A DNA stretch of 51,480 bases from an uncultured Acidimicrobiales bacterium (lineage in GTDB: Bacteria > Actinomycetota > Acidimicrobiia > Acidimicrobiales > CALAML01): the NCBI GenBank assembly GCA_937925845.1, contig CALAML010000023.1:1-51480 (forward strand). Direction: 5' to 3'. Both the position numbers and the translations under genes were made by a program. This document shows positions 1,848 to 13,543 of the stretch, in pieces. Position 1 is the stretch's first letter. Each line of letters opens with the position of its first letter. Under the pieces are notes generated by a model. It did no database searches, was not told the origin of the DNA, and was given only the letters and a program-made list of their open reading frames with translations.

Positions 1848-1921
1848 CGATCGAACGCAAAATCTCAAGCTTTGCTAACCTCTTCCCTGTTCAGTGACAC
1901 ATGCTTTGGGAAGGGCCTGTT

Positions 1922-2131
1922 ATGGATCGGAACAACGACGGCGCGAAGCCGTCCCGGCGGGATGCACTTCGTAAGGGTGCCGCCATCAACTTCCTTATCA
2001 ACAGCGCAGCATTTGGTGCTCAAACCGGTGCGACCAATGGTTCATCAGTCCGAGAGTTCTTCGGACCAATCAACTCATTCATGCCCAGCGGATCCGGCAG
2101 CTATGGCGGGACCATCACCTGTTGCGACTAG
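1922..2131 (+). CDS. Short Tat-leader peptide ending Cys-Cys-Asp (family member 1)
   Basis: A 69-residue product. The ATG is chosen because GGGAAGGG sits 6-8 bases upstream, the same signal used by the two paralogues nearby. The N-terminus has PSRRDALRKGAA, a twin-arginine leader matching the 156-residue paralogue at 2990-3460 almost residue for residue. The C-terminal half, VREFFGPINSF...GTITCCD, matches that paralogue's AREFFGPVNAV...GSIACD. The piece between (the W-AP...LSLRPEYAAA signal end and about 90 residues of domain) is missing, so this looks like an internally deleted copy or a minimal peptide. It overlaps the convergent paralogue by 4 bases at the stop codons. Function unknown; export by Tat is inferred and may be lost. 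Confidence 0.65.
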   Translation: MDRNNDGAKPSRRDALRKGAAINFLINSAAFGAQTGATNGSSVREFFGPINSFMPSGSGSYGGTITCCD

Positions 2132-2787: not shown

Positions 2788-2910
2788 CAGGCTTTCCCCG
2801 ACACCGCCGCCAAAACGCTGGCCTACCCCGTCTGCTTCGCTTTCGATGGCGAGGAGTCCGGCCTCGTTCCAGACACCTCATTCACCGGAAACGTCGTCTG
2901 CTGCGATTGA
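2788..2910 (+). pseudogene. Relic of a fourth Cys-Cys-Asp-ending protein
   Basis: A 40-codon frame opens after an in-frame TAA at 2785 and has no plausible start codon or ribosome binding site. It ends TSFTGNVVCCD-stop, closely resembling the tails of the three intact neighbours (GTITCCD, ARLCCD, GSIACD). The upstream part (AYPVCFAFDGEESGLVPD) does not align clearly with them. It overlaps a 24 bp stretch also found at the 3' end of the cupin gene. I read it as a decayed remnant left by duplication or recombination in this locus; a chance tail is possible but the five-residue match plus stop is striking. Confidence 0.45.
2843..2866. repeat. 24 bp copy of the 3' end of the cupin gene (second copy 3481-3504)
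   Basis: Bases 2843-2866 and 3481-3504 are identical at 23 of 24 positions (TCGATGGC, one mismatch, then AGGAGTCCGGCCTCG). In the second copy the minus strand encodes the last residues of the cupin protein, EAGLLAIE. The first copy preserves the same residues on its minus strand, with one extra base just before. This indicates a duplicated and decayed cupin-gene tail in the intergenic space before the third Tat-signal gene. Confidence 0.6.
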
Positions 2911-2989
2911 CCTATGGGGTCCGCTCCTGCGCCGGTTGTCATCGGTAGCGTGTGACCCGTTCAGCACTCAGGTCTCGGGAAGGGCATTT

Positions 2990-3460
2990 GTGGACCAGAA
3001 CGACGTTGGAAGAGGGCCATCCCGGCGGGATGCGCTGCGAAAGGGTTCCGCCTTCGGCCTCGCCACCGGAATCGCTTGGACGGCGCCCAAGGTTTACGGC
3101 CTTAGTCTTCGGCCCGAGTACGCCGCGGCTACATCGGCACCAAACGGACACGCCAACTTCTCCGTGCAACTGGCCGTCTCCTCAAGCTCGATGTACGCGT
3201 TCATTGCGTCTGTCACGCCATCCGATCGGGTGAGCTCCGTGACTGCCTCGGCCAATCCCGCGACATGGACCCTGACAGTCAGTGGCTCCCAAGTAGATCA
3301 GTGCGATCTGGCCACGATCACCGCGACCGGTCTCGGAGTGGCTATCGGGCCGGCTTCCGGGTCCAACCTGGGCTCGAACGCACGAGAGTTCTTTGGCCCG
3401 GTGAATGCGGTCCCACGCTTTGGAGACGCCCAAATCACCGGAAGCATCGCCTGCGACTAG
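2990..3460 (+). CDS. Tat-signal exported protein ending Cys-Asp (family member 3)
   Basis: A 156-residue protein starting at GTG, chosen for the GGGAAGGG seven bases upstream (a longer frame from 2846 has no such site and runs over the relic). The Tat leader PSRRDALRKGSAFG is followed by a hydrophobic core and IAWTAPKVYGLSLRPEYAAATS, the same layout as member 2. The mature region is Ser/Thr/Ala-rich and predicted beta-rich (FSVQLAVSSSS, WTLTVSGSQVDQCD, ATITATGLGVAIG), with NAREFFGPVNAV near the end and a terminal ITGSIACD. Only two cysteines occur, one internal and one in the terminal motif. Its stop lies 7 bases from the convergent cupin gene. Probably exported folded; function unknown. Confidence 0.75.
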   Translation: MDQNDVGRGPSRRDALRKGSAFGLATGIAWTAPKVYGLSLRPEYAAATSAPNGHANFSVQLAVSSSSMYAFIASVTPSDRVSSVTASANPATWTLTVSGSQVDQCDLATITATGLGVAIGPASGSNLGSNAREFFGPVNAVPRFGDAQITGSIACD

Positions 3461-3467
3461 GAGGACA

Positions 3468-4886
3468 CTAGGTATCGGTCTCGATGGCAAGGAGTCCGGC
3501 CTCGACCAGTTCTTCGCAGAGTTGGCCCCTCGCCTCCGGGGCATCTTCGACTTCCGGTAGGTCACCGACCCGGTGGCTTCGACAGTCGGCCAGTTCGGCG
3601 AAGAGATCGGCTACCGGGTTCGCTACTTCGATGAGTTGATCGCCGAAAGCCAGGCGAACCACCGCCGGGTCGCGGTTGATCACGTGCACGCCAGCCGGGA
3701 CTGGCATGCGCACGATCTGATCGTCCCAGTTGTCGTCGGCGACGGCGGCCCACAGGTCGTACAGGCTGGGGAACATCCGTACAGGCAGCCGGGCCCGGTA
3801 GGTGGCCACGGCAACGGCCATGAAGTCGGGTCCGATCACCTCGTCGACCACGTTGCGGAAGCTGTCAGGTTCGTCGTGGAGCGACTTGTCGTAGGCCATC
3901 GCCGGAGCATCGAGGTCATAAGCCAGATCGGCCCGCAAAATCGGCTGATGGCCACCGGCGGTGCGCAGGCGTTCCACCACGTCGGTGCCAGTGAGGCGGT
4001 TCACGCCGATGGTGTAGTGCACCGCCAGATCATCCGAGCCAGCCACCTCGTGGCCCCAGCCCCGAGGAATCACCAGCGCCATGCCGGGTTCGAGGTAGCC
4101 CTCCCAAACCGGCCTTGGGCTCACCTGAGGACCGACCCAAGGTCGCATCGGTGACAAAGCCAGCGGTTCGTACACCTTCCACAGTTTGGCCCCGGCCGCC
4201 GGCACGATGATGGTGTCGTGCTGGTCCCAGTGCTGGCCAAAGCCGAGAGCCTCGCCCCACGACAGATAGACGTTCGTATTCACCCGGCAGCCGTAGACCC
4301 GTTCGAGGTGTTCGTGCACACCGCCGATGACCGGGTCGATGTCGTCGATCCCGTTGATGATGACCGTCCAACCCTCACGCAGCGCGGAGACCAAGGGGCC
4401 GGGGCGGACCCGGTTCATCTGGGGCCGGGCGGGGTCGGTCACCCGGTCGGGGCGGAGGCCGGTTTTGCCCGGGTCGCCGTGGGAGAACCGCAACCGGTTT
4501 CCCGGCAGGTTGTGCTCCGCCAGCAGCCGCTCCACCGTTGTTATGGCGTCGAGGTGGTCAAAGAGTTCGGCGCCCAGATTGAGCACCGTGAACCGTCGGT
4601 CGTCGCAGGTCTGGGCCGCGGTGGCAAAGTCGTAGCCCGGAAACCACTTGGCCAGCGCCTCGATCGAGTCGGCTCTGGCTGTGGCGTTCTGTTCGGCCAG
4701 CCGGGCCTGCAGTGGTCCGGCGCTGGCATCGACCAGCCGCACCACCGGGGCCGGACGGGGCAATGGGCTCACTCGAACGAGCTTGCCCTGAAACGTTTGC
4801 GCCTCTACCTGGTTGGCCTTTTCACGTACTTCGGCTTGATCAGCTGGTTGCGCGCCGGCGGCTTCCCCCGCGGCATCGGTGTCCAC
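3468..4886 (-). CDS. JmjC/cupin-type Fe(II)/2-oxoglutarate oxygenase (ROXY-like)
   Basis: A 472-residue protein from a GTG with AGGGGAAG upstream. Residues 165-300 form a JmjC/Cupin_4-like core: TVIINGIDDID, then QHWDQHD with His219 and Asp221 as an HxD pair, AGAKLWKVYEP, GMALVIPRGWGHEV with His279 as the distal ligand, and LAVHYTIG. All three iron ligands are therefore present and an active hydroxylase is likely. The last 70 residues look like a winged-helix/PqqD-like tail, as in ribosomal oxygenases of the YcfD (RoxA) type. Known relatives hydroxylate protein side chains. It lies downstream of the sulfotransferase on the same strand and tail-to-tail with a Tat-signal gene, so an exported-protein substrate is plausible but unproven. 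Confidence 0.82.
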   Translation of the reverse strand: MDTDAAGEAAGAQPADQAEVREKANQVEAQTFQGKLVRVSPLPRPAPVVRLVDASAGPLQARLAEQNATARADSIEALAKWFPGYDFATAAQTCDDRRFTVLNLGAELFDHLDAITTVERLLAEHNLPGNRLRFSHGDPGKTGLRPDRVTDPARPQMNRVRPGPLVSALREGWTVIINGIDDIDPVIGGVHEHLERVYGCRVNTNVYLSWGEALGFGQHWDQHDTIIVPAAGAKLWKVYEPLALSPMRPWVGPQVSPRPVWEGYLEPGMALVIPRGWGHEVAGSDDLAVHYTIGVNRLTGTDVVERLRTAGGHQPILRADLAYDLDAPAMAYDKSLHDEPDSFRNVVDEVIGPDFMAVAVATYRARLPVRMFPSLYDLWAAVADDNWDDQIVRMPVPAGVHVINRDPAVVRLAFGDQLIEVANPVADLFAELADCRSHRVGDLPEVEDAPEARGQLCEELVEAGLLAIETDT

Positions 4887-4955: not shown

Positions 4956-5969
4956 CTACAAGCCTTGCTGCGCCGCCCGCTCCGCCAGCTGAGCGGGCAG
5001 ATCGCCCACCACCCTCGCCAACTGGTCACGGCTTCGAGTGCTCAGCGGCGGATGGCGGTGGCGGCCTTCGGGCTCGAAGCGTTGGCCGTCGACCGGAGCC
5101 TTCGAGTAGTGGCCCAGCTCCCCCAGTGCGGCATCGATGTCGAGGTCGAGCTTGAGGTGTCGCTCGAGGGCGTCCAAGACTCGGCGGGGTTCGGCGGTGA
5201 CCGTGGCGTGATCAACCAAGAGCACCCGCTCGGGGTCGACTCGCAGCGCAGCATCGGCTCCTGCAGCCCAGACCGATGCGTAGATGTCTATGGCGTTAAA
5301 TGGTTGCTCGATGCGGTCAAGCCAGGGCACCCACCGCTGAAGCAGAGCTCGAGGTTGATGGATGCGTCCAGCCCATCCCGGGTGGCCGTCGAGCGAGGAC
5401 TCCACCGTCTCAATCGGGTTGCGGTACACAAACACCATCGGCGTGCCGTCCAACAACTCGCTGTGACGACCCATCGAGAAGCTCTCCCAACTCGAGTGCT
5501 TGATCACCACCCGCTGGTTGCGGCTGGCGGCAAAGCGATCGAAGGCCACCAGGGCCGCGTGCATGGCCCGCTCCACGGTGAAGGTGGGCACGAGAGCAGA
5601 GCCACCGGATTCGCGATGCAGGGCGCCGATCACGCCCGATTCCCGCAGCACCAGCCGGCTGCGGTCGTGGCCCACCATGCGGCTGATGAGCGTCGACCCG
5701 CACCGACCCACGTGAAAGATCATGCCGGTGGTCGCCGGCCTGATGCCGGTGGTGATCCGGTTGAGTTCGTCGAAGGTTACCGACACCTTCTCGAGGTCAC
5801 CGGCGGTATCAGCGGCCTCAAGTTCGGTCATGGTGTTGTGCCAGAACGGTCGATCGAAATCGAGATCGTCCGGGGGTTGGATGAACTCGATCCGCTGCTC
5901 ATGGGTGACGGCGCGATAGGGCATCAGGCCATCGAGGTCTTTGAGTTGCTGCGGTGCAGTAATGGTCAT
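4956..5969 (-). CDS. PAPS-dependent sulfotransferase family protein
   Basis: A 337-residue protein. Residues 83-98, MIFHVGRCGSTLISRM, form the 5'-phosphosulfate-binding loop of the P-loop sulfotransferase family. A second PAPS-contact region is likely at VVIKHSSWES...MVFVYRNPIETVESSLDGHPG. These enzymes transfer sulfate from PAPS to hydroxyl or amine groups of proteins, sugars or small molecules. No membrane segment or signal is seen, so it should act in the cytoplasm, before any Tat export. It starts 88 bases from the divergent kinase gene and is followed on the same strand by the cupin oxygenase. Hydroxylation followed by sulfation of the same target is an attractive but unverified reading. 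Some P-loop members of this family have other activities. Confidence 0.8.
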   Translation of the reverse strand: MTITAPQQLKDLDGLMPYRAVTHEQRIEFIQPPDDLDFDRPFWHNTMTELEAADTAGDLEKVSVTFDELNRITTGIRPATTGMIFHVGRCGSTLISRMVGHDRSRLVLRESGVIGALHRESGGSALVPTFTVERAMHAALVAFDRFAASRNQRVVIKHSSWESFSMGRHSELLDGTPMVFVYRNPIETVESSLDGHPGWAGRIHQPRALLQRWVPWLDRIEQPFNAIDIYASVWAAGADAALRVDPERVLLVDHATVTAEPRRVLDALERHLKLDLDIDAALGELGHYSKAPVDGQRFEPEGRHRHPPLSTRSRDQLARVVGDLPAQLAERAAQQGL

Positions 5970-6057: not shown

Positions 6058-7257
6058 ATGTCGGGGTATCGGGAAGGCTCCGCCGGGAATACGGCGCGGG
6101 ATCCTCGGCCGCGCCGCGCCCAGGCCACAAGACCCGAACCTCCGGATGACACCCGGTGGCACCAGGGCACCCCTCGAGCGGTTGGCCCCTTCGAGGTAAC
6201 GCCGGAGTCCAACGATCCTGAGTTGGTGGCGTTTCTTGATCGCTTGCTCGGCGACCTACCCGCTGGACGTCGGGTCGAGAATCGGGAGTCCCTCGTGCTT
6301 CGTTGGTGGAGGCGGCCTGACGAGTCGGCGCCGATCGTCGCCTGGTTTGATGGCCAACGGGCCGGGTCAAACCGCAACCCACAGCGCTTAGCGGCCACAT
6401 CGACCCGCAAGCTCAACCGGGCTCGCCTCGATCGGGAGACCGAACTCGCCCATCTGCATGCCGGTGCCGTGACCCGCGACGGGGTGACGGTGATGATTCT
6501 TGGGGCGTCGATGTCGGGCAAGTCCACCCTGACTGCGCACCTGGTGTCCGAAGGGTGGTCCTACCTCAGCGACGAACAACTGGCCGTCTCAACGGACGGA
6601 CGCATCCATCCCTATCAACGGCCGTTGACGCTGCGCTCCGAATCGTGGCCGTTGTTCGCCCACATCCCCGAGGTGCCGACCAGCAACGACACCGACCTGC
6701 CTCGCCTCGACATTCCAGCTTCGGCCTTTGGGCCCGTCTACCACGGCCCTGCGCTGATGCCGGACCTGATCGTGGCGCCGGACGTATCCGTCGCCGAAGC
6801 GACGGTTCAGCGGCTCACGACGGCCCGCACCCTCGAGGCCCTGATCGGCGACTCTCTCGATCTGGAGCGGGCCGACCAGGTGGGCCGTGATGGCCTGCTC
6901 GCCCTGGCCCAGGTCCCGAGCTACCGCATCGCCGGACAGGATCTTGCTCGAACCACCGAAGCCATCGAGGCTCTGGCGGTCGAGGGTGGTGGCGACGCAC
7001 CCCGGCCGCCGGTCTCGGTACCGGCCGGTTCCGGTGACTCGATCCGCTCGACGACGGCGATGGCTTGGCTCTTCGGTGACGGGTCAAGCCTGATCTATGA
7101 CCGGGTCAGCGGGGTGGTTGCCGTAGTCGACGCGGCCGGGTTCGAAGCGTGGCGTCGGGCCGACACCCTTGCTGTCGCCTCGGACACAACGCCGGAACAG
7201 CTCGACTTTCTCCGGACGTTGGGCAAGGCCGGTCTGCTCGATGGAGCAGGGATCTAA
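6058..7257 (+). CDS. HPr-kinase-like ATPase with C-terminal PqqD-like domain
   Basis: A 399-residue protein. Residues 131-180 are typical of HprK-related kinases: AHLHAGAV, Walker A GASMSGKST (149-157), then EGWSYLSDEQLAV. There is no HPr, PTS or typical HprK N-terminal domain, so it belongs to the HprK-related group found with peptide-modification systems rather than carbon-catabolite control. Residues about 335-399 (MAWLFGDGSSLIYDRVSGVVAVVD ... FLRTLGKAGLLDG, in pieces) resemble a PqqD-type peptide-binding winged helix. The stop and the next start overlap as TAATG, so translation is probably coupled. It is divergent from the sulfotransferase. The phosphorylated target is unknown; the PqqD-like end suggests it binds a leader peptide. 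Confidence 0.7.
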   Translation: MSGYREGSAGNTARDPRPRRAQATRPEPPDDTRWHQGTPRAVGPFEVTPESNDPELVAFLDRLLGDLPAGRRVENRESLVLRWWRRPDESAPIVAWFDGQRAGSNRNPQRLAATSTRKLNRARLDRETELAHLHAGAVTRDGVTVMILGASMSGKSTLTAHLVSEGWSYLSDEQLAVSTDGRIHPYQRPLTLRSESWPLFAHIPEVPTSNDTDLPRLDIPASAFGPVYHGPALMPDLIVAPDVSVAEATVQRLTTARTLEALIGDSLDLERADQVGRDGLLALAQVPSYRIAGQDLARTTEAIEALAVEGGGDAPRPPVSVPAGSGDSIRSTTAMAWLFGDGSSLIYDRVSGVVAVVDAAGFEAWRRADTLAVASDTTPEQLDFLRTLGKAGLLDGAGI

Positions 7258-9059
7258 TGGTTGATACCAACGACAACACGAGCGCCTCACCGCTGATCCT
7301 GAGCTGGAGCGAGCTCTCCGAACCACCGCAGCTTTTCCTCGACAGCTTTCTCCAAGAGGGTCTGGCCCGCGCCAACACGCTGGCCGCCGATGCCGCCCGG
7401 GCCCGGGTCTCCGCCGCCTTGAGCATCGATCTGACTGACCAGGCCGACCAGGCTGAAGAATCCGACTCCGGCCCTTCTCCTCGGCTTGGTGTGTTGGCGG
7501 GCTGGCAACCGCCCGAAGACATCATGGCTCTGGCTCAACAGGTGGTCGCCGGGTCGACCGCCGCGGGAAAGACCGCGGCTCGGCTGGTGTTTCCGGAGGG
7601 TTCGGCCCCACTCGGACCCGGTATCGACACTGCTGATTCCGACACTGCTGATTCCGACACTCCTGACTCCGGTGCGGCACCACGGGTGGATCTTCGCCGA
7701 CCGGCGCATCTGCTCCGCCGACTCGACCAGGGCTGGACACTCGAGGCGCAGGAACCGGTGGGTCTGGCCCCGGAGCTGAGCCATCTAGTCGGCGACCTCG
7801 AGACCGCTTTTGGACCGGTGATGGTCACCTTCAGCCTCGGGTTGCGCTCCGCCCTCGGTGCCGCGCCTTCGGCGAATCCAGGCGGCTGCCTTTTTGTGCA
7901 ACTGGCCGGGACCCGAGCACTATTGCTGCGAGGCGAAGCCGACCAGCAACAGTTCCGGGTTGGTGCCGGTCAGGTGGTGTGGGTTCCCAGCCCGTGGGTC
8001 GCCCAGCACCTGCCACTGGATGCCGACAGCGCCCATCTCACAATCGCCCTGGCCCAGTCCCCGCTCTCCACATCAGATCGTTCCGCACCAGGTGAGCCGG
8101 CGTGGTCCGACCAGACCGAAGCCGACCCCGCCATGTACCCGGCCCGAGCCAGCTACGACATGGCTGGAGCTCGGGGGTTCTTCGCCGCCGATCCGGCCGC
8201 TGGTTGGATGTTTCGCTGGGCCGCCCCCGCCGGGGCTCTAGCTGCGGCTGATCAACCGGACCCGACCAACGGTCGATCGCTGATCGTGGCCGGCGGCATC
8301 GCCCTTGAGGTGGCTTCCGATGGGCTCCGCCTCATCGAGACTCTGGCCGCTGGCGAGTGGACAACCGCGGCCGCCATCAGCGACACCACCAACCTGGATC
8401 CAGTGGCCGTGGGCGCGGCCATCGAGGAGCTGGCCACGCTGGGCCTGGTGACCCTCGCTCCGGCCCGCCGGGACCATCGGACCAACACCTTCCTCAACGG
8501 GGTGGCTCGGGGTGTGTCGATGCCAGCAGAGATGGTGGGCCAGCTCATCGCCACCATCGATGAAGCCAAGTGGCGACCACCCACACCAACCGAGGTGCGC
8601 GCTGTTGACACGAATACGGTGCAAGTCCAGTCCCTCGCTCCCGATGGTTATCCGCTTGTTGCCGAGGTGGTTCGGGCCGTGGCCATGTTGAACGCCCAGT
8701 TCTTTGGGGCCGACATCAATGGCCAACAGGAGGATGATCCACCGCTGATGGTCCGGTTGCGTGTTGGCGAATCGGGCTCACCGTTCGACCCGCTGGATTC
8801 TCTTGGCAGCGATATCGAAGGCGACAATGAGGGCCGCACCAACACCAGCCGCAAGCTCACTTGGGTGCTGTCGCTGAGCGACGCTGAGGGTTCAGCACAG
8901 GGTGGGTGGTTTGTGATGCCGGGTGGTTCCGACAAGGTTGAGCCGACTCCGGGCGAGGTCTCGGTCTTTCCCGCGTTTCGACTGTGGACGCTGGCTCCTC
9001 TCGAGGCCGGCGAGCGGCTGCTACTCCTCGGCCGCCTTCACGGTCCGGCGTTTCGCTGA
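7257..9059 (+). CDS. Fusion protein: degenerate cupin, PqqD-like and degenerate prolyl-hydroxylase-like domains
   Basis: A 600-residue protein starting at the ATG that overlaps the kinase stop. Residues about 145-270 follow the JmjC/cupin pattern (LLRRLDQGWTLEAQE, CLFVQLAGTRALLL, VGAGQVVWVPSPWVAQHLPL, SAHLTIAL), but where HxD is expected there is GAAPSANPGG. Residues about 340-405 resemble a PqqD/winged-helix module (GGIALEVASDGLRLIETLAAGEW...ELATLGLVTL). Residues about 425-600 resemble a P4H-type 2-oxoglutarate oxygenase (RLRVGESGSPF, KLTWVLSLSD, GGWFVMPGG, PGEVSVFPAFRLWTLAPLEAGERLLLLGRLHG); the HxD and the distal His are not seen, Leu-Trp-Thr replacing the latter region. Both oxygenase folds thus look non-catalytic, suggesting a scaffold or substrate-binding role. 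Residues 125-139 are a tandem repeat linker. Confidence 0.6.
   Translation: MVDTNDNTSASPLILSWSELSEPPQLFLDSFLQEGLARANTLAADAARARVSAALSIDLTDQADQAEESDSGPSPRLGVLAGWQPPEDIMALAQQVVAGSTAAGKTAARLVFPEGSAPLGPGIDTADSDTADSDTPDSGAAPRVDLRRPAHLLRRLDQGWTLEAQEPVGLAPELSHLVGDLETAFGPVMVTFSLGLRSALGAAPSANPGGCLFVQLAGTRALLLRGEADQQQFRVGAGQVVWVPSPWVAQHLPLDADSAHLTIALAQSPLSTSDRSAPGEPAWSDQTEADPAMYPARASYDMAGARGFFAADPAAGWMFRWAAPAGALAAADQPDPTNGRSLIVAGGIALEVASDGLRLIETLAAGEWTTAAAISDTTNLDPVAVGAAIEELATLGLVTLAPARRDHRTNTFLNGVARGVSMPAEMVGQLIATIDEAKWRPPTPTEVRAVDTNTVQVQSLAPDGYPLVAEVVRAVAMLNAQFFGADINGQQEDDPPLMVRLRVGESGSPFDPLDSLGSDIEGDNEGRTNTSRKLTWVLSLSDAEGSAQGGWFVMPGGSDKVEPTPGEVSVFPAFRLWTLAPLEAGERLLLLGRLHGPAFR
7626..7670 (+). repeat. 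15 bp tandem repeat, three units, in the fusion gene
   Basis: Two perfect copies of GACACTGCTGATTCC are followed by a third with two mismatches. It encodes the linker DTADS-DTADS-DTPDS between the N-terminal region and the cupin-like domain. Copy number may vary between strains; it does not disturb the frame because the unit is a multiple of three. Confidence 0.85.
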
Positions 9060-11908: not shown

Positions 11909-13543
11909 CTACTCCCATTCGATGGTGCCGGGGGGTTTGGAGGTGATGTCGTAGGCGCAGCGGTTGATGCCTTCCACCTCGTTGATGATGCGGCTCGACA
12001 TCTTTTCAAGCAGGTCATAGGGCAGGCGGGCCCAGTCGGCGGTCATGACGTCTTCGCTGGTGACGGCTCGGATGATGATGGGGCGGCCGTAGGTGCGTTC
12101 GTCGCCCATCACGCCGACACTGCGGATGTCGGGGAGCACGGCAAACCCCTGCCAAATATCTCGCTCCAGCCCCGCCGCCTTGATCTCCTCTCGCACAATG
12201 GCGTCGGCGTGGCGAAGGGTTTCGAGTTTGTCGGCGGTGACCTCGCCGATGATGCGCACTCCCAGACCGGGTCCGGGGAACGGCTGGCGCCATACGATCT
12301 CGTCGGGCAGGCCAAGTTCGGAGCCGAGCTTGCGCACCTCGTCCTTAAAGAGGGCTCGCAGGGGTTCGACCAGTTCAAAGTCCATGTCGTCGGGCAGACC
12401 GCCAACGTTGTGGTGGCTTTTGATGGTGGCGGCATCGGAGGTACCCGACTCGATCACGTCGGGATAGAGGGTGCCCTGCACCAGGAACTTGGCACCAGAC
12501 ACCTGGCCCTTGGCGTCTTCGAAGACGCGGATAAAGACCTCGCCGATGGCCTTGCGCTTGGCTTCCGGTTCGGTCACGCCCCCGAGGGCGGTCAGGAAGC
12601 GCTCGGTGGCGTCGACCGAGATCAGATCCATCCCCTGGTGCTCGCGGAACGCCGCCTCCACCTGTTCGGTTTCGTTCAGCCGCATCAGCCCGTTGTCGAC
12701 ATAGACACAGGTGAGCTGGTCGCCGATGGCTCGGTGCACCAGCGCCGCCGCCACCGCCGAGTCGACTCCGCCGGAGAGCCCACAGATGGCCCGACCATCA
12801 CCGACCTGGGCCCGCACCCTCTCGATCAGCATTTCGGCGATCGACCCGGTGTTCCAGTCGCGACCGCAGGCACACACTTCGTGCAGGAAACGGTCGATCA
12901 TCTCCTGCCCGTTGGGCGTGTGGACCACCTCGGGGTGGAACTGCACCCCGTAGAAGCCCCGAGCCGCATCTTCGAAGACCGCCACCGGTGCGCTCGGCGT
13001 GCTGGCCCGCACCGACGCACCGGCCGGTGCTTTGGTGATGGCGTCGAAGTGGCTCATCCACACCTGTTGTTCGGCGGCCAGGTCGCCGGCCAGTAATACG
13101 CCCGGGTCGTCGGCCACCGCCATCTCGGCTCGGCCGTACTCGCCCTGCTCACTTCGGCCGACGGTGCCGCCGTTGCTTTGGGCCAGCAGTTGGGCGCCGT
13201 AGCAGATGCCGAGAATAGGAATGCCGGTGTCGTAGATCTCGGGGTCGATGGTCGGTGCCCCCTCCACATGGACCGACTTCGGGCCACCGCTCAAGATGAT
13301 GCCGGCCGGCTTCATAGCCACCAGGTCGGCGGCGGTGACCTTGTGGGGCACGATGGTGCTGTAGACGTTGGCCTCGCGCACCCGGCGGGCGATCAGCTGG
13401 GCGTACTGGGCGCCAAAATCGACCACCACGACGGTTTCCCGGTCAGTGGAGTCCAGGCTGGTCAGGGGCGCTGTTCCGGAGGCATCTGCGTCGGCTACCA
13501 CGATCACATCCCAAATCGGAGAATTGGGCAGTCTAAGAGCCAT
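11909..13543 (-). CDS. guaA: GMP synthase (glutamine-hydrolysing)
   Basis: It converts XMP to GMP with glutamine and ATP, the last step of guanine nucleotide synthesis. The N-terminal class I amidotransferase begins at [18 protein letters not shown], with nucleophile in [13 protein letters not shown] and the His-Glu pair in [10 protein letters not shown]. The ATP pyrophosphatase loop is [14 protein letters not shown]. The C-terminal dimerisation domain has [12 protein letters not shown] and ends [12 protein letters not shown], the family's conserved end. I chose the ATG at 13543 (544 residues); the protein would carry about 35 residues before the conserved core, and in-frame GTG codons about 40-50 bases downstream, or a TTG at 13582, are alternatives. 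It is divergent from the small gene at 13603. Confidence 0.96.

Follow-up and report, generated by a model that had tools for sequence, protein, structure and literature searches.

A fusion of ROX-type JmjC-like and P4H-like folds with degenerate iron sites in an uncultured Acidimicrobiales bacterium

To our knowledge, most described cases of dead 2OG oxygenases are eukaryotic second domains or paralogues. The protein described here is bacterial. The architecture of the ROX proteins, to which YcfD/RoxA, NO66 and MINA53 belong, was summarised in PMC6006756. OGFOD1/Tpa1 has a non-catalytic second barrel, assigned by its authors to substrate or partner binding (PMC4396695). A literature search on pseudo-oxygenases and on HprK-related kinase A retrieved nothing relevant. 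The gene of interest, at positions 7257-9059 (+) of the window (the whole stretch of 51,480 nucleotides analysed), encodes a fusion protein of 600 aa, in which a ROX-type JmjC-like part, a winged helix and a P4H-like part follow one another and both iron sites are degenerate.

The fusion gene and its surroundings

The region was filled by one ATG-started open reading frame of 600 codons with an intact frame, and it is a genuine gene. Its GC content by codon position was coding-like, with a GC3 somewhat below that of the housekeeping genes. The ATG overlaps the stop codon of the gene directly upstream as TAATG. That upstream gene (6058-7257, +) encodes an HprK-related kinase with the Walker A motif GASMSGKST, which matched TIGR04352 with an E value of 2e-16, a match far below the cut-off of that model. 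Pfam analysis of the fusion returned two matches below cut-off, MarR_2 at residues 363-408 (E 9e-4) and 2OG-FeII_Oxy_3 (PF13640) at residues 527-576 (E 0.23), and an NCBIfam search returned no match.

Further upstream, a ROX-type JmjC hydroxylase with the intact HWD...H ligand set in the alignment (3468-4886, −; PF08007, E 1.5e-16) is the probable catalytic partner. It is accompanied by a sulfotransferase-like protein (4956-5969, −; PF13469, E 6e-4, below cut-off) and by two Tat-signal proteins with a common leader, protein 1 (2128-2757, −) and protein 2 (2846-3460, +), both candidate substrates. A short third protein with a Tat-leader-like sequence is encoded at 1898-2131 (+) and has the REFFGPxN end in common with Tat-signal protein 2. 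An active P4H and a small 2OG partner enzyme were not found in this genome (87% complete), which leaves the P4H-like half of the fusion with no known live partner.

Only one genome is known to carry the fusion, and it carries a single copy. No full-length relatives were detected in the genome contigs searched or in plasmids, and no fused copies in the sampled genomes of the order and class; for the order and class the scoring was limited to about three candidates in each genome, so this absence is soft and other copies may exist. Matches in two genomes (G420 and G579; L010 and L009) were discarded as wrong-frame noise, and the larger reading frames around other P4H matches (L062, L026, L029 and L066) were rejected as fusions because they were wrong-frame extensions.

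Folds and iron sites of the two barrels

The N-terminal part (residues ~30-266, with the barrel at 188-266; 7344-8054, +) was assigned to the ROX-type JmjC family by profile and by structure. In hhalign comparison with 29 intact JmjC proteins it reached a probability of 96.6% (E 5e-10), the maximum over 30 shuffles of the same sequence being 0.5%. AlphaFold2 models were built on alignments of proteins from the window and the related loci, with the N- and C-terminal halves modelled separately, and were of fair to good quality. For the N-terminal half, mean pLDDT was 77 and pTM 0.78. In this predicted model, residues ~45-402 adopt the ribosomal-oxygenase JmjC hydroxylase fold of YcfD, NO66 and MINA53. 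Its best Foldseek match was 4csw (E 1.6e-10), with which 292 residues were aligned at a VIA Z score of 16.8. Foldseek matches comprised a Rhodothermus YcfD-like protein, E. coli YcfD, NO66 and MINA53; across these, VIA aligned about 280-310 residues at Z scores of 15-17 and covered residues 41-406 of the fusion. By hhalign, AlphaFold2, Foldseek and VIA alike, the fusion has a JmjC barrel with a C-terminal winged helix.

All three conserved iron ligands of this barrel are lost. The preliminary description of the locus, made from the DNA letters, had pointed to an alteration at the HWD pair of a cupin-like part, and this was borne out: the fusion reads SALGAAPSANPGGCLFVQLAGTR where its intact neighbour reads ALGFGQHWDQHDTIIVPAAGAK. 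In the JmjC alignment, the H-x-D columns are occupied by S205-A-N207 (7869-7877, +) and the distal iron-binding His column by A249 (8001-8003, +), so that the His, Asp and His present in 29/29 intact relatives are replaced by Ser205, Asn207 and Ala249. At the conserved Lys column (Lys in all 29) the fusion has another basic residue, R220. His251, two positions away from the column of the lost distal His, has no partner ligands.

Between the barrel and the winged helix, where ROX enzymes have their dimerization domain, the fusion has a shortened, low-confidence link of about 50 residues (267-316; 8055-8204, +), with pLDDT below 50 at residues 272-303; several active JmjC members of the clusters are also short here. 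The winged helix that follows (residues 317-402; 8205-8462, +) was identified from the AlphaFold2 model, VIA and the sub-threshold MarR_2 match. It lies inside the ROX structural match and is in register with the winged helix of the neighbouring JmjC protein in the alignment. A PqqD-like core had been proposed for this region, an interpretation that found no profile support: hhalign of the middle part against seven PqqD-like cluster sequences, a limited set, gave 0.2-2.4%, and Pfam yielded no PqqD match in the fusion. The middle part corresponds to the winged helix found in ROX-type JmjC proteins.

The C-terminal part (residues 421-600; 8517-9056, +) is P4H/PHD-like. A profile of six intact P4Hs from the related clusters matched the C-terminus of the fusion with an E value of 2.9e-22, its sole match in the genome. 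The AlphaFold2 model (mean pLDDT 83, pTM 0.81) resembled viral collagen P4H, PHD2 and Pseudomonas P4H, with Z scores of 13-15. The H-x-D columns, conserved in 35/35 intact relatives, are occupied by P512-L-D514 (8790-8798, +), and the distal His column, equally conserved, by W577 (8985-8987, +); the His, Asp and His of the relatives are thus Pro512, Asp514 and Trp577 here. The LWTLAP segment does lie where the distal His had been expected, with W577 in that very column. The reported loss of HxD held for the His only, as the Asp is kept. Also kept is R587 (9015-9017, +) at the 2OG-binding Arg column, Arg in 35/35.

Taken together, the presence of two oxygenase-like folds in one protein was confirmed by both profiles, with a shuffle control for the JmjC part. 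The claim that both folds had lost their iron ligands needed qualification, since all three ligands are gone from the JmjC part and two of three from the P4H part, which retains Asp514. As had been anticipated, the fold is retained around the lost ligands: both barrels still match their families, also in the structural comparisons with JmjC and P4H proteins (AlphaFold2, Foldseek and VIA), and R587 is kept. Neither a mismatch of fold nor substitute ligands were seen by sequence alignment and Foldseek/VIA. No His or Cys occupies the ligand columns of either barrel, and the entire protein contains six His and one Cys. Judged from the alignments, metal-ligand loss in both barrels is firm, and iron binding in either appears very unlikely because no His occupies any ligand column.

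Related clusters with separate dead paralogues

Seven related clusters (L011-L017, L114) were found in genomes of one family (f20), of which one member (G372; L022) is a Microthrixaceae MAG. These clusters encode a Tat protein, an intact JmjC, a small 2OG enzyme, an intact P4H, a dead P4H, a dead JmjC and a kinase, gene content being judged within the fetched stretches, where some clusters lack individual genes. The dead P4H directly follows the active P4H in 6/7 clusters, and four clusters (L012, L013, L014 and L017) encode a dead JmjC. Unlike in the fusion, the two are encoded as separate proteins. A minimal cluster of JmjC, Tat protein and kinase was found in a genome of another family (G264, f53), so that Tat protein, JmjC and HprK form a core that recurs in both families.

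A profile of the dead JmjC group scored 98.6% (E 7e-16) against that of the live JmjC proteins; single members scored lower, one only 42%. In the alignments, the Lys is missing from the four separate dead JmjC proteins, as is the Arg from the six dead P4Hs. The six dead P4Hs formed a clade of their own in the P4H tree (support 100/98), and the fusion fell outside it on a long branch. Its placement as sister of that clade had a support of only 79/89, at which one and two ligand losses are not distinguishable. The dead paralogues are kept in several genera.

Some further features of these and other loci were observed. Four clusters contain or adjoin transposase or IS-like genes (L013, 16594-18998; L014, 6001-7473; L015, 5285-6283; L016, 12581-13846), which suggests rearrangement or mobility. 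At L011 (11387-12761, −), the dead P4H gene is followed by genes for two more proteins; the product of the first (12036-12761) matched 2OG-FeII_Oxy_5 weakly (E 2e-4, below cut-off). Tandem JmjC_2 domains occur at L113 (9043-12230, −; G043), where several barrels may be present in neighbouring or fused genes. At L077 (3-1508, −, and 1592-2983, −), a Tat-signal protein adjoins a protein that unites a P4H-like domain with another 2OG domain, and an HprK-like kinase adjoins the pair. This Tat-signal protein, whose N-terminus is PqqD-like, carries long APTSAP repeats and is a candidate substrate for proline hydroxylation.

Proposed role and comparison with known systems

We propose, with about even confidence for and against, that the fusion is a non-catalytic accessory subunit or adaptor for the hydroxylation of exported Tat proteins. 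We infer this role as adaptor or binding platform from its position among an active JmjC, an HprK-like kinase and Tat-signal proteins, and from the dead paralogues beside active enzymes in the related clusters. The fusion would bind the Tat-signal proteins encoded nearby, or dock on the active JmjC enzyme, and would present or select the substrate for hydroxylation, possibly also for phosphorylation or sulfation, before Tat export. It might in addition serve as an adaptor for the kinase acting on the Tat-signal proteins. The shortening of the dimerization domain to roughly 50 residues of low confidence makes docking through the usual ROX dimer doubtful, and the failure to find an active P4H or the small 2OG enzyme in this 87%-complete genome also counts against the adaptor reading. 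In the related clusters, the separate dead JmjC and dead P4H would serve an equivalent role. More tentatively, the loci may represent a system for Tat-protein modification with matched live/dead pairs of JmjC and P4H, whose dead partners were fused into one adaptor in this genome.

Other readings were weighed against the adaptor role. The clusters might serve another purpose, such as RiPP-like tailoring or cell-surface assembly, the Tat proteins not being substrates. Nearby HprK-like kinase, PqqD-like and sulfotransferase-like genes, and the glycosyltransferase and exopolysaccharide-like genes adjoining related clusters, are in line with this, but Tat protein, JmjC and HprK recur as a core even in the minimal cluster of the other family, and we regard this purpose as somewhat unlikely. 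A sensor function is unlikely as well. Here, one or both barrels would retain iron-independent binding of 2-oxoglutarate or a similar acid, and the winged helix would mediate regulation of the cluster, as the kept R587, the basic R220 and the presence of that helix would allow; yet changes affect Tyr501 and the Asn/Tyr columns of the JmjC part (T191, S193), and the separate dead proteins lack the corresponding Lys (four JmjC) or Arg (six P4H). Moreover, we know of no ROX winged helix that acts as a DNA sensor.

Decay of a catalytically dead remnant that derives from an ancestral JmjC-P4H pair and now has no function would fit the occurrence in one genome only, the long branch in the P4H tree and the slightly lowered GC3. 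It is quite improbable in view of the intact 600-codon frame, coding-like codon positions and the start overlapping the kinase stop; the fold core and R587 are also retained, and dead paralogues have themselves been kept in several genera. Some cupins function without the usual ligands, and D514 is kept while H251 and H260 lie near lost ligand columns in the sequence, so that one barrel could be enzymatically active, with a different chemistry or with different metal ligands. With ligand columns devoid of His, and so few His and Cys residues in the whole chain, we consider such activity highly improbable.

If the adaptor role holds, this bacterial fusion, which unites dead folds of two different oxygenase families in a type of cluster where dead copies repeatedly adjoin live ones, would offer a testable example of pseudoenzymes serving as fixed hydroxylase partners. 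The fusion and the clusters point to a not yet described system that modifies Tat-exported proteins.

Compared with described systems, the barrel and winged helix (residues ~45-402) find their best fold match in the ROX proteins (JmjC_2, PF08007). The fusion differs from these in lacking the HxD...H triad, in its shortened dimerization region, in the added P4H-like domain and in its clustering with Tat-signal proteins and a kinase. Its C-terminal part resembles P4H/PHD2 (2OG-FeII_Oxy_3, PF13640) in fold, in the STRKL-like and R587 motifs and in the GPAFR end, but has lost two of three iron ligands and matches the Pfam model only below cut-off. The separate dead P4H and dead JmjC proteins (L011-L017) likewise combine two folds without ligands in a matching cluster context, whereas they are encoded by separate genes and the fusion stands outside their dead-P4H clade. 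With OGFOD1/Tpa1/Ofd1 it shares two DSBH barrels in one chain, a non-catalytic barrel among them; one barrel is active there, whereas both barrels of the fusion are dead and derive from two oxygenase families.
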